Source: Barnesiella viscericola DSM 18177
GTDB taxonomy: Bacteria; Bacteroidota; Bacteroidia; Bacteroidales; Barnesiellaceae
Direction of reading: 5' to 3'
Assembly: GCF_000512915.1 (NCBI RefSeq)
Contig: NZ_CP007034.1
Span: forward strand, 372,001 to 436,000
DNA length: 64,000 bases
The notes under the pieces: model-generated
Told to the model about the DNA's origin: nothing
The model's input: only the letters and a program-made list of their open reading frames with translations
Databases searched by the model: none
In this document: piece after piece, positions 32,281-37,141 of the stretch
Layout of the letters: each line of letters starts with the position of its first letter
How positions within the stretch are numbered: the first letter of the stretch is position 1
Position numbers and translations under genes: made by a program

Positions 32281-33948
32281 TTAGCGCACTATGCACTTTT
32301 GCCCGTTGACAAAATATACGCCAGCCGGCAAACTGATCACTTCGCGCCCGGCAAATCGCCCGGTAGCGTAGCAGGCACCGTTCACATGAACAACCGAGTA
32401 GTCAACCTCTTCGTTGCTGAGTAACTCAATCTGATTCTCGCCGGCGATTACCCGCAAGCCGTCAAACTCTTCCGTATCCTGAATACTTGTCGGCTTATTC
32501 TCGAAGAGAATCGTAATCGCCACATCACCGTCGATATATTCGGCCGGAATCGTAATCAGGCCATCTTCTTCAAGCGTCACATTATCGACCTTCCACTGAC
32601 GGTTTCCAAACACATACTCTTCACCCTCATGGTTATAGCCGTGTTTGATCTCGAGCCCCGTGATATTGTAGTCATTGTCCATGTCGATATTGAACGAGAA
32701 GGCTTCGCCAAAAGGTATCTCGGCTGGCAGATTGGATCCGTCGGCAGCCGTCACTTCGCACATTCTGGCTACTACGTTCAAAGCCACATTGTCGCGATGC
32801 ACGTTGGCCAGATAATCAACAATACCACCACCATTGGCTACAATCGAGTTGTCGGAGTTAGGATTACCGGCAGCTACCGAACTGTCCCAGTCGACCTTGC
32901 AACGGATTCGGTAGAAGCCCGGGGTCATGTCGGAAGAGAGGGTAAATGCAGGAGGATCGGAACTCGTACTATTTAAAGCCGACGCACCGGTACTGTTATA
33001 TCCCGATAAATAAGAATAGGCTACCAAATCACTGCTGGCTGTGGGAACATTGTTCTGTACATCGACATCGAAACGTCCGTCATTGCCTTTGTCGAGGTAG
33101 ACATACCGGTGCATCCAACTACCCGTGTAACCGAATGAAACAGTAACAGACTCTCCCACTTTCAGCAAGATGGGATCGGCCGAAGTCTTATCGGCATACA
33201 CCGTACTTACATCAGCCAAGTTCGATCTGTACATGGCTCCCATATTGCCCGAGACAGAAATACTGTCCAAATTACGTTCTTCTGTTGGACGGGTTTTCTC
33301 TTGCGTAGCCTCGAAATTCAAGGGATAGGGATCAAACGTAAAACGCTGTTGCGAATCGTCGTTAATCACAATTTCATCGAAATAGGCTACATAATCGGTC
33401 TCGGTAGCCAGGTGAGAATCTACATCGGGAACGATTACGAGGCTGTGCAACTCGGCAGCATCGTTGCCATACACACTGAATACGGCATCGACCCACTTGT
33501 TAGCATCGAGCTCTTTGGTCGCAGGGGTTACAAATTGCACGGTTGTAGCCGGCTGATCGGGCCAATCGTTACGTTTCCCGAGTCCCACGAGAGCTACCCG
33601 GCCCGATACCGGTTTGTACATCAACACGTGAATGTATTGCGGTGTAGGCGACAGAGCTATCGGAGTGGTCAGATCGATACGGGCTCCATACAGGTGGCTG
33701 CCATATCGCGAACGCTGGAAGGCCAGTACCTTTCCCGAACCGTTTATATCGTCGGAGTAAGGATTGTCTACAACGTCAATCTGACCGGTGAGTTTCCCCG
33801 TATTGAAGGGTGACTTGTCCCAATAATCATAGGTGGAGATGTCACTATAATCGGTTTCCTCAAACTGGCACAATGTTGTCTCGGCATATCCACCCAATGC
33901 CCAAAGCAACGCGGCTGCACCCATGAGATTCTTATATATTCTTTTCAT
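32281..33948 (-). CDS. Secreted multidomain protein with C-terminal sorting-like domain
   Basis: A 555-residue exported protein, signal peptide ending about ALGGYA. The N-terminal 200 residues (FEETDYSDISTYDYWDKSPF, and a beta-rich part ending DYVAYFDEIVI) resemble a carbohydrate-binding jelly-roll domain. A middle GEVED-like segment has YVYLDKGNDGRFDVDVQ. The last 65 residues (LRVIAGENQIELLS through LPAGVYFVNGQKCIVR) resemble a type IX secretion sorting domain or a related small beta domain. The gene begins 26 bases after the fucosidase stop, so the two are probably co-transcribed and act on the same glycans. Domain names are tentative. Confidence 0.65.
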   Translation of the reverse strand: MKRIYKNLMGAAALLWALGGYAETTLCQFEETDYSDISTYDYWDKSPFNTGKLTGQIDVVDNPYSDDINGSGKVLAFQRSRYGSHLYGARIDLTTPIALSPTPQYIHVLMYKPVSGRVALVGLGKRNDWPDQPATTVQFVTPATKELDANKWVDAVFSVYGNDAAELHSLVIVPDVDSHLATETDYVAYFDEIVINDDSQQRFTFDPYPLNFEATQEKTRPTEERNLDSISVSGNMGAMYRSNLADVSTVYADKTSADPILLKVGESVTVSFGYTGSWMHRYVYLDKGNDGRFDVDVQNNVPTASSDLVAYSYLSGYNSTGASALNSTSSDPPAFTLSSDMTPGFYRIRCKVDWDSSVAAGNPNSDNSIVANGGGIVDYLANVHRDNVALNVVARMCEVTAADGSNLPAEIPFGEAFSFNIDMDNDYNITGLEIKHGYNHEGEEYVFGNRQWKVDNVTLEEDGLITIPAEYIDGDVAITILFENKPTSIQDTEEFDGLRVIAGENQIELLSNEEVDYSVVHVNGACYATGRFAGREVISLPAGVYFVNGQKCIVR

Positions 33949-33974: not shown

Positions 33975-35474
33975 TTAATATACCGAAACGGTGCTGATAA
34001 GCGGACAGGCCTTGCTGTCGGTAATCTTCACACGGATATAACGGGCTTGCGTACCGCTGCCATAGGAGGTCGTATCGTCGTTCTTGGCCATAATACGCTT
34101 GTAACCGATGGTTGTACCGGTGGCAAACGGATCCCAAGAGCTGTTGTCACTGCTGGTTTCGATCGAGAAGCCTTTTACCCGTTGTCCCAGGGCAATATAC
34201 TCTTGCAGGGTCACATAGTGAATGGTTTTCACCTCACCCAGGTCAATGACGAAGGTTCCGGTAATCTCGTCGTCGTTGGTGGCCCAATAGGTGTTTTTGT
34301 CGCCATCAGTCATGTTGGAAGCGGCAAAGTTGCCCGGGTTACGGGTCTGCTCGGCCGTTACCGTTTTATCCAAAGCCATATCGACGCTCAACCGGGCTGT
34401 CAACAACTCGCCCAAACCGCGAAGGCTCGTACATACGTTCTCGGGCATTACGCCATCGGTATTGGGTGCGCAGTTCATGATAAGGGTAGCGTTACGCCCT
34501 ACACTTTCGAGATAGATCTGGAACAGTCTCTCGGCCGACTTGGCTTGTTCTTCTGCGGTCCAAAACCATTTGGAGGTTGTGCGTACATCGACCTCCGAAG
34601 GCATGAACAACAGGCCATCTTCGGCACCCACATTATTGGTAGTCTCGCTATTGATACTGTTTACATCGAAATTGGACCAGCAGGTCTTTCCCGAATAACC
34701 GTCCTCATTACCACACCAGCGGAATTCACGACCCCATACCACACAGTTGGGTTGCATCTCGTGAATGCGTTGCGTGAGGTTATCCCAGTCATAGTAGGTC
34801 TTCTTGTCAATCGTGCGGTTGACCAGAGAATTGCCGCCATAATAACCTTGACCGCCATTGGCCCCATCGAACCAGATTTCAAACAGTTCGCCGTAGTTGG
34901 TACAAAGTTCGGTTATCTGTTTCAAAAATACATCGGTCACATAGGTACTGGTTGCATAATGCTCATTGCTGGCGTCCCAGGGAGAGAGATAGACTCCAAA
35001 TTTCATATTGCGTTTGCGACAGGCCTCGGAAAACAGCAAGGGAATATCGACCTGCGCACTCACGCCTGCACCGTTCAATACACTAAAATCGGTACTCTCG
35101 GTGGGCCACAGACAGAAACCGTCATGGTGCTTGCAAATAACTACGGCACCCTTCATACCGGCCGAGTGCATGGCCTCGACCCATTGGTCGCAATCGGGTA
35201 TGGTTTGCGGAGCATACTCTTTCGGATTGGGTTTACGGTTATTACCCCACTCTGTTCCTACAAAGGTATTGGGGCCGTAATGTGAAAAGCCATAAAACTC
35301 CGTCTCCATCCAATTTAACTGTCGCTCGGTCGGAACCGGGAAAACAGGAGACGGGATGTTGTCGGGATTGGGAAGATTTTGCTCCGTAAAATCTTGGGAT
35401 TTTACGGGCAAAGACAAACTTGTCAGTCCTAGAACAAGTGTGACAAAGGTTAATCTTTTGCAGATATGTCTCAT
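33975..35474 (-). CDS. Secreted alpha-L-fucosidase (GH29) with F5/8-type C domain
   Basis: A 499-residue enzyme expected to release fucose from host or dietary glycans. Signal peptide: MRHICKRLTFVTLVLGLTSL onward. The GH29 domain shows FGFSHYGPNTF-like FYGFSHYGPNTFVGTEWG, VVICKHHDGFCLWPT and EIWFDGANGG, where the Asp is the likely nucleophile. The last 130 residues are a discoidin-type carbohydrate-binding domain ending at the stop. The ATG at 35474 is rebuilt from the last base of an IS element plus the target-site TG. The native promoter is on the far side of the IS, so expression is probably reduced or altered. The next gene is co-directional. Confidence 0.88.
   Translation of the reverse strand: MRHICKRLTFVTLVLGLTSLSLPVKSQDFTEQNLPNPDNIPSPVFPVPTERQLNWMETEFYGFSHYGPNTFVGTEWGNNRKPNPKEYAPQTIPDCDQWVEAMHSAGMKGAVVICKHHDGFCLWPTESTDFSVLNGAGVSAQVDIPLLFSEACRKRNMKFGVYLSPWDASNEHYATSTYVTDVFLKQITELCTNYGELFEIWFDGANGGQGYYGGNSLVNRTIDKKTYYDWDNLTQRIHEMQPNCVVWGREFRWCGNEDGYSGKTCWSNFDVNSINSETTNNVGAEDGLLFMPSEVDVRTTSKWFWTAEEQAKSAERLFQIYLESVGRNATLIMNCAPNTDGVMPENVCTSLRGLGELLTARLSVDMALDKTVTAEQTRNPGNFAASNMTDGDKNTYWATNDDEITGTFVIDLGEVKTIHYVTLQEYIALGQRVKGFSIETSSDNSSWDPFATGTTIGYKRIMAKNDDTTSYGSGTQARYIRVKITDSKACPLISTVSVY
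35467..35473. repeat. Target-site duplication, left copy
   Basis: TGTCTCA here and at 36990-36996, directly flanking the two inverted-repeat ends of the IS element. A perfect 7-base duplication indicates insertion of the whole 35474-36989 unit in one event. Confidence 0.8.
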
Positions 35475-35566
35475 CACTGCTGTCCGGAGAAGATTCTCCA
35501 AAGCAGCTATTATTAATTAATACTCAACTGGTTACGAGGATAATAAAATTTTTCGATTAGAAATCA

Positions 35567-35574
35567 TAGTTTTG
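35567..35574 (+). promoter_or_regulatory. -7 element of the truncated IS left end
   Basis: TAGTTTTG fits TAnnTTTG, 32 bases before the remnant transposase ATG at 35607. It occupies the place equivalent to TAACTTTG (35761-35768) in the complete copy. Confidence 0.5.
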
Positions 35575-35606
35575 CAAGAAGGTATAAACAGCCAATTCTG
35601 CAAACT

Positions 35607-35711
35607 ATGAACAAAGGAAAAACAATATTTGCACAGGTTATGTCTCTTATAAACACATACGAATTCACTAGTGTCCGGAGAAAAATTCTCCGACAAGGGT
35701 TTAATTATTAA
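35607..35711 (+). pseudogene. Truncated transposase 5' end
   Basis: Reads MNKGKTIFAQVMSLINTYEF, matching the first 20 residues of the complete transposase (MNKGKTIFAQIMSLINEYEF). The frame then runs into the second left inverted repeat and stops 14 codons later. DNA similarity between the two copies is clearly below identity, so this is a fragment of a diverged relative, not a recent duplicate. Confidence 0.85.
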
Positions 35712-35760
35712 ACATCAATAATGTTATAAGCATTAGAAAATTTTTCGATTAGAACATCAG

Positions 35761-35768
35761 TAACTTTG
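35761..35768 (+). promoter_or_regulatory. -7 element of the transposase gene
   Basis: TAACTTTG, exact fit to the consensus, 30 bases before the transposase ATG at 35799. Confidence 0.55.
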
Positions 35769-35798
35769 CGGTAGCCATCAAGAGGTTATCCGCAAGCC

Positions 35799-36968
35799 AT
35801 GAACAAAGGAAAAACAATCTTCGCTCAGATTATGTCTCTCATTAACGAATACGAGTTCAAGAAATGTGTCGACCGCTACAAAGGTGACCGGCATGCTATC
35901 AAATTCAATTGTCGTGACCAGTTCATGGTGATGAGTTTTGCACAGTTCACTGACAGAGCTGGTTTGAGAGATATAGAGACTACACTTAACCTCTGCGGCG
36001 ACCTCTATCGCTCCGGAATCAAGGCAATACCTCGATCCACGCTTGCGGAGGCCAATGAGAAGAAGGATTGGCGTATATATCAAGACTTTGCGATGACTTT
36101 GGTAAAGGAAGCCACGATGCTTTACAAGGATGAAAAGCTGCGAATTGGTCTTGAGGAGATGATATATGCGTTTGACAGCAGTACCATTGAACTGTGTCTT
36201 AAGTTGTGTCCATGGGCCGAGTTTCATCATGGTAAGGGCGCGTTCAAGATACATACACTGATGGATCTGCGAGGCTCGATTCCCACATTTGTCATGCTCA
36301 CGCCAGGCAAGGTTAACGATGCCAGGATGATGGACAAGATTCCTGTTGAAGCAGGTGCTTTCTACCTGATGGATAGGGGATATGTTGCCTTTGAGAAACT
36401 TTACAAGCATTTCCAGCAAAAGGGCGCCTACTTTGTTACACGCGCCAAGGACAATATGTCTTATGAGGTTATTGAGTCCAGACCTGTCAATAAAGACTCG
36501 GGCGTTCTTTCGGATGAGACTATCAGACTTGCTGGATATTACTCTACCAGAAAGTATCCAGACACATTGAGACTTGTTGTGTATGAAGACTTTGAGACTG
36601 GAAGAGTATATCGATTTCTGACCAGCAACTTTGCGATTGACGATCCGCTGACTATTGCGGAACTCTACCGTGAACGCTGGCTGATAGAACTGTTCTTCAA
36701 ATGGATCAAGCAGCATCTTCACATCAGGACTTTCTACGGCACTTCCAAGAACGCCGTGTACACGCAGATATGGATAGCCATTTGTGACTATCTGCTGCTC
36801 ATCATTGCGAAGAAGCGATACGGGTTGGATCCAAGTCTTCATTCTATCTCTAACTCAATCGGACAAGTCCTCTTCCAGAGGGCGGATATCCGTGAAATTT
36901 ATAATCAGCCGACAACTCCCGTTTGTGTTCCGGAGGCGGGTTCTGTCGAGCAACCTACTTTATGGTAA
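35799..36968 (+). CDS. IS4-family transposase, intact
   Basis: A 389-residue DDE transposase. A DUF4372-like N-terminal part is followed by the catalytic domain. Asp126 is in YAFDSSTIEL and Asp192 is in LMDRGY. The third residue, Glu297, is in YRERWLIELFFKWIK, which carries the IS4 signature Y-x2-R-x3-E-x6-K (Tyr290, Arg293, Glu297, Lys304). All three acidic residues are present and the frame is open to the stop, 3 bases before the right inverted repeat, so the protein should be active. It is transcribed opposite to the fucosidase gene. Confidence 0.93.
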   Translation: MNKGKTIFAQIMSLINEYEFKKCVDRYKGDRHAIKFNCRDQFMVMSFAQFTDRAGLRDIETTLNLCGDLYRSGIKAIPRSTLAEANEKKDWRIYQDFAMTLVKEATMLYKDEKLRIGLEEMIYAFDSSTIELCLKLCPWAEFHHGKGAFKIHTLMDLRGSIPTFVMLTPGKVNDARMMDKIPVEAGAFYLMDRGYVAFEKLYKHFQQKGAYFVTRAKDNMSYEVIESRPVNKDSGVLSDETIRLAGYYSTRKYPDTLRLVVYEDFETGRVYRFLTSNFAIDDPLTIAELYRERWLIELFFKWIKQHLHIRTFYGTSKNAVYTQIWIAICDYLLLIIAKKRYGLDPSLHSISNSIGQVLFQRADIREIYNQPTTPVCVPEAGSVEQPTLW

Positions 36969-36989
36969 AATTTCTCCGGACAGCAGTGA

Positions 36990-36996
36990 TGTCTCA
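36990..36996. repeat. Target-site duplication, right copy
   Basis: TGTCTCA, identical to 35467-35473. On the minus strand the base before it completes ATG (36997-36995), which is the original fucosidase start codon stranded on the promoter side. Confidence 0.8.
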
Positions 36997-37018
36997 TAAT
37001 ATTATAATTTTAACCCCA

Positions 37019-37050
37019 CAAATATAAAACACTCTTTTTAATAATACAAA
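37019..37050 (-). promoter_or_regulatory. Stranded native promoter of the fucosidase gene
   Basis: On the minus strand TTTG (37050-37047) and TATATTTG (37026-37019) are exactly 20 bases apart, a complete Bacteroidetes promoter. It points to the stranded ATG at 36997 with a leader of about 15 bases. The IS now separates it from the rest of the gene. Confidence 0.75.
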
Positions 37051-37141
37051 ACTTAGTTTACATTTTATTAAATGTAATACTAAAATAAAGGGAGCAGATG
37101 ATTCTGCTCCCCTTGTCTCTAAACGCCCAATACAAATCCAT

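Follow-up and report, generated by a model that had tools for sequence, protein, structure and literature searches.

An IS4-family insertion at the start codon of an intact GH29 fucosidase gene in Barnesiella viscericola

The window analysed here is a 64-kb stretch of the 3.08-Mb, one-contig genome of Barnesiella viscericola DSM 18177. In it, an insertion sequence (IS) of the IS4 family has landed on the start codon of a GH29 fucosidase gene, which is still intact; the element parts the body of this gene from its native start and promoter. The fucosidase gene, on the minus strand, lies directly past the left end of the 1.5-kb element, and the promoter and one start codon lie beyond its far (right) end. 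This arrangement raises two questions, namely how the coding sequence came to remain whole, and whether the gene is still expressed. Taking the sequence comparisons below together, we consider it highly probable that an IS4Sa-type element duplicated the start codon upon insertion, and that expression of the gene is strongly lost.

The target duplication and the uninterrupted allele

The gene at 33975-35474 (minus strand) encodes an alpha-L-fucosidase of 499 amino acids. Its Alpha_L_fucos domain (PF01120) scores 119.9 bits, relative to a curated cut-off of 25.2, and its F5/8 type C domain (PF00754) is also above the cut-off. Like other GH29 alpha-L-fucosidases with an F5/8-type domain, the protein can be aligned to solved alpha-1,3/4-fucosidases, e.g., 3mo4 and 3ues, and compared with these enzymes it shows no unusual feature. 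Two further PF01120 genes are found elsewhere in the genome. As an earlier note on this DNA had claimed, the coding sequence is whole after the insertion: read from the ATG at 35474, it is complete and free of stops.

The element occupies positions 35475-36988, i.e., 1514 bp, and is flanked by a 9-bp direct repeat, ATGTCTCAT, at 35466-35474 and 36989-36997. On the minus strand the left copy reads ATGAGACAT and provides the start codon from which the fucosidase frame is now read, while the right copy contains the stranded native start codon, a minus-strand ATG at 36997-36995. The earlier note had instead placed the element at 35474-36989, between flanks of TGTCTCA, such that the last base of the IS would supply the A of a rebuilt ATG. 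At the fucosidase site alone, repeat lengths of 7, 8 and 9 bp are indeed all compatible with the sequence, since the bases on either side of the 7-mer happen to match, and this single site does not by itself speak against the shorter reading. The same IS is however found elsewhere in the genome with exact 9-bp duplications around a 1514-bp body (CACTG...CAGTG). Five of the six identical copies have such a duplication and the sixth has none; the other four repeats are gtattgatt, cacgcacat, ggtttgtaa and ccaattata. The known range for IS4Sa elements, 8-10 bp (PMC2266710), also speaks against a 7-bp repeat. Because the other copies show 9-bp repeats around the same body, we take the duplication at the fucosidase gene to be the 9-bp ATGTCTCAT, with the IS starting at CACTG. 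On the evidence of these flanks we rejected the 7-bp duplication and the ATG rebuilt by the IS, which we now regard as an alignment ambiguity and hardly credible as an account of the event. Since the 9-bp duplication includes the whole ATG, both copies of the start codon derive from the target, and the IS supplies none of their bases. A lesson of this locus is that the length of a target duplication is best read from several copies rather than from one. A search of the open-access literature by title or abstract found no precedent for a duplicated start codon.

The nearest named relatives belong to Barnesiella, namely Candidatus B. excrementavium (97% fucosidase identity), An22 and An55. An uninterrupted allele is present in three other Barnesiella genomes (L045, L046 and L051), and An22 and An55 are among its carriers; each species is represented by a single genome in the collections searched, and these comparisons are between species. 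When the flanks in the window are joined with a single copy of the repeat, they read ...TTATAATATT-ATGAGACATATCTGC..., and the three relatives agree. Their alleles read ...TATAATATT-ATGAGACATATCTGC..., with the TAnnTTTG box conserved and the adenines at -3 and -6 kept. The start codon is thus joined directly to the fucosidase codons in all three, as the earlier note had predicted for relatives without the IS. Because three genomes carry the uninterrupted allele, the insertion is the derived state. Six identical copies are able to confuse short-read assembly, and an IS misplaced at this site by the assembler would be an artefact. We regard this as extremely improbable, as the genome is a single contig, and an exact 9-bp duplication at both ends, together with joined flanks that match those of relatives exactly, is the mark of a real insertion. 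We conclude that the event is a real, recent and well-resolved IS insertion of an ordinary and very probably gene-silencing kind.

The element and its copies in the genome

The element carries on its plus strand an intact transposase of 389 amino acids (35799-36968), with DUF4372 and DDE_Tnp_1 domains, which matches the IS4 family transposase model NF033592 over its cut-off (E = 4e-75). The IS4Sa subgroup has been described as having ends of the form CA------T, direct repeats of 8-10 bp, sizes of 1150-1750 bp and a Y(2)R(3)E(6)K motif (IS4 family goes genomic, 2008; PMC2266710). The ends CACTGCTGT and CACTAGTGT show the terminal pattern CA------T (Table 1 of PMC2266710), the repeats are of 9 bp in five of the six long copies, and the long and short forms, of 1514 bp and 1322-1323 bp, are both within the size range. 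The catalytic residues D126, D192 and E297 have spacings of 65 and 104, as in the IS4Sa pattern D(60-110)D(100-150)E, and the YREK motif is YRERWLIELFFKWIK. The element therefore fits IS4Sa, an assignment made by ends, repeat length, size and YREK motif and not by a tree.

The long form in the window, whose ends are CACTGCTGTCCGGAGAA and TTCTCCGGACAGCAGTG, differs from the IS4Sa elements described in PMC2266710 in bearing an extra, diverged left end. This outer left end (35475-35665, plus strand) is 191 bp long and repeats, in diverged form, the left end and the first 21 transposase codons, with 74-83% identity to the inner left end. It is followed by a complete short-form IS (35666-36988, plus strand; 1323 bp, CACTAGTGTCCGG...CAGCAGTG). 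The long form is thus a hybrid with two tandem left ends, in which 191 bp of a diverged, related IS are fused to a complete 1323-bp IS. A truncated transposase N-terminus of 34 codons (35607-35711, plus strand) begins in the outer left end and runs a few codons into the inner IS. The outer left end resembles the right end (CACTGCTGTCCGGAGAA on both sides) more than the inner left end (CACTAGTG...) does. From this structure, the hybrid probably arose when a short IS inserted into a related IS and transposition then took place from the outer left end. In a search for the parent of the outer 191 bp among 393 genomes of the order, the only match, of 73%, was to the ordinary short element, and a search of plasmids gave only short matches of 72-79%. 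Among the genomes searched, the long hybrid form was found only in this one. On its own, the short form is found in this genome (L007 and L008), at contig ends of An55, and in G197. Barnesiella An55 also contains a 178-bp mini-element made of IS ends (L038, 1464-1641), whose left end is a perfect 37-bp palindrome, CACTAGTGTCCGGAGAAAAATTCTCCGGACACTAGTG.

The identity of all six long copies suggests a recent spread of the IS. Target duplications are absent from one long copy (L004) and from both short copies. This is as expected from recombination between copies or from rearrangements caused by them; a comparison of the copies seen gave no matching half-sites. A start codon is covered by one of the five duplicated sites; another is near codon 20 of a small open reading frame (ORF), a third is in a type I specificity gene, and the remaining two are outside known genes, barring short or antisense ORFs. 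We therefore rejected a target preference for start codons, as none is visible in these five sites; the exact overlap with the fucosidase start codon looks like a positional coincidence. The copy in the type I restriction specificity gene (Methylase_S), which it interrupts, is L005. Another (L003) is located upstream of a cas9 gene (PADLOC Cas9, E = 1e-24), at a distance of a few hundred bases, and could influence the cas9 leader or neighbouring RNA genes.

The stranded promoter, the new leader and the expected expression

The native promoter consists of the -33 box TTTG (37047-37050), a 20-nt spacer and the -7 box TATATTTG (37019-37026), all on the minus strand, and matches the Bacteroidetes consensus with zero mismatches. 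Across the whole 64 kb, such matches number only three on the minus strand and one on the plus strand. The -7 box reads TATATTTG, TATCTTTG and TACCTTTG in the three relatives, i.e., TAnnTTTG is kept in each. Between the promoter and the stranded start codon lies a native leader of about 15 nt. The separation of the fucosidase body from its native start and promoter, as originally proposed, is thus confirmed.

We read the course of events as follows. A recently amplified IS4Sa-type element transposed into the fucosidase gene at its first nine bases, ATGAGACAT, which became duplicated, so that both sides keep a complete ATG. The promoter side retains the promoter, the leader and an ATG that opens a dead-end ORF of 30 codons running into the IS (36905-36997, minus strand). 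The gene side retains an ATG and the whole coding sequence, with no recognisable promoter and with the structured, A-poor end of the IS as its leader. Because transcription is parted by 1.5 kb and the region of translation initiation is destroyed, the result would be a strong loss of fucosidase expression. This loss probably extends to a 555-amino-acid gene (32281-33948, minus strand) located 26 bp downstream, a probable operon partner. In each of the five relatives examined, this gene adjoins the fucosidase gene. The pair is therefore probably transcribed as a single unit, and the two genes would lose the promoter together.

The change in the leader is extensive. The earlier note had described a hairpin, GGAGAA-TC-TTCTCC, about 14 bases before the new ATG; this palindrome at the end of the IS is real (35486-35499), but it is 11 nt from the moved ATG. 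It is contained in a larger, strong minus-strand fold of -23.3 kcal/mol (z = -3.6), and the IS-end leader folds better than all of 200 shuffled sequences. At positions -3, -6, -12 and -13 the native A, A, A and A are replaced by G, G, C and C. According to the folding model, opening the region from -18 to +18 costs 3.8-4.9 kcal/mol with the native leader and 19-21 kcal/mol with the IS end. In Flavobacterium johnsoniae, initiation is helped by those leader adenines and by low structure, and reporter output drops when the adenines are replaced (PMC6847099). The promoter consensus and the initiation rules that we apply here come from other Bacteroidetes genera than Barnesiella. Because the IS-end leader is A-poor and heavily structured, any readthrough transcripts are predicted to be poorly translated.

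The native promoter, still intact, points toward the IS, and we found no terminator-like site on the minus strand inside the element. Transcription might thus proceed for 1.5 kb through the IS, giving useful fucosidase expression as well as an antisense RNA against the transposase. Past the 30-codon ORF, however, this transcript would be mostly untranslated, and largely untranslated RNA is usually prone to Rho-dependent termination. In addition, the leader at the second ATG requires about 20 kcal/mol to be opened. We therefore consider useful readthrough unlikely.

IS insertions in promoter or leader regions are known to alter downstream expression, e.g., of cfiA or cepA in Bacteroides fragilis, and in Bacteroides, resistance genes with an IS-borne promoter upstream have been documented (review, PMC9330008). 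By analogy with the IS1186-type elements at cfiA, an outward or fusion promoter of the IS end might drive the fucosidase gene, possibly more strongly than before. As in those cases, the IS in the window is directly upstream of an intact coding sequence. Unlike them, it has no recognisable outward promoter, the start codon is duplicated, leaving an ATG on either side, and expression is predicted to be lost rather than gained. Specifically, a minus-strand scan with the Bacteroides consensus TTTG-N18-22-TAnnTTTG found no match with up to two mismatches less than about 400 nt from the moved ATG, neither an outward promoter nor a -33 element being seen in the IS end. A sigma-70 consensus scan of the minus strand of the IS likewise found no site, and on the basis of the two scans we rejected an outward IS promoter near the fucosidase gene. 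As the new leader is also unfavourable for translation, activation by the IS is somewhat less probable still than readthrough.

The earlier note had left silencing and antisense readthrough side by side; the lack of a promoter-like site in the IS end and the destroyed initiation region favour silencing. Judging from the sequence and the folding model, the insertion very probably acts at two levels, promoter and initiation, to silence the fucosidase gene along with its downstream partner. The gene itself has 6 nonsynonymous and 15 synonymous derived codon changes in the window lineage, versus 5 and 20 in the sister lineage, and no relaxed selection is seen in this comparison. The missing gene decay fits a recent insertion; for an insertion of this age it is uninformative, and no proof of silence. 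If the IS were lost precisely between the 9-bp repeats, the allele of the relatives would be restored. It is conceivable, though very unlikely, that such gain and loss constitutes a natural on/off allele of the fucosidase operon, in which antisense RNA from the captured promoter dampens the transposase copy and renders the inserted state self-stabilising.

The strain should not be annotated as fucosidase-positive by way of the GH29 gene in the window. The locus is also a natural experiment, in that the same intact enzyme gene has its native promoter and leader in the relatives and an IS end here, a contrast that would allow the weight of transcription versus initiation-site loss to be measured in Bacteroidales.

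Upstream of the promoter, a terminator-like hairpin (37087-37114, minus strand) parts the fucosidase unit from the preceding gene, of 882 amino acids. In Candidatus B. excrementavium (L045, 3955-5634), the gene upstream of the fucosidase differs from the 882-amino-acid gene found in the window, An22 and An55. The fucosidase promoter region is kept in this relative, and the end of a rearrangement lies between it and the differing upstream gene.
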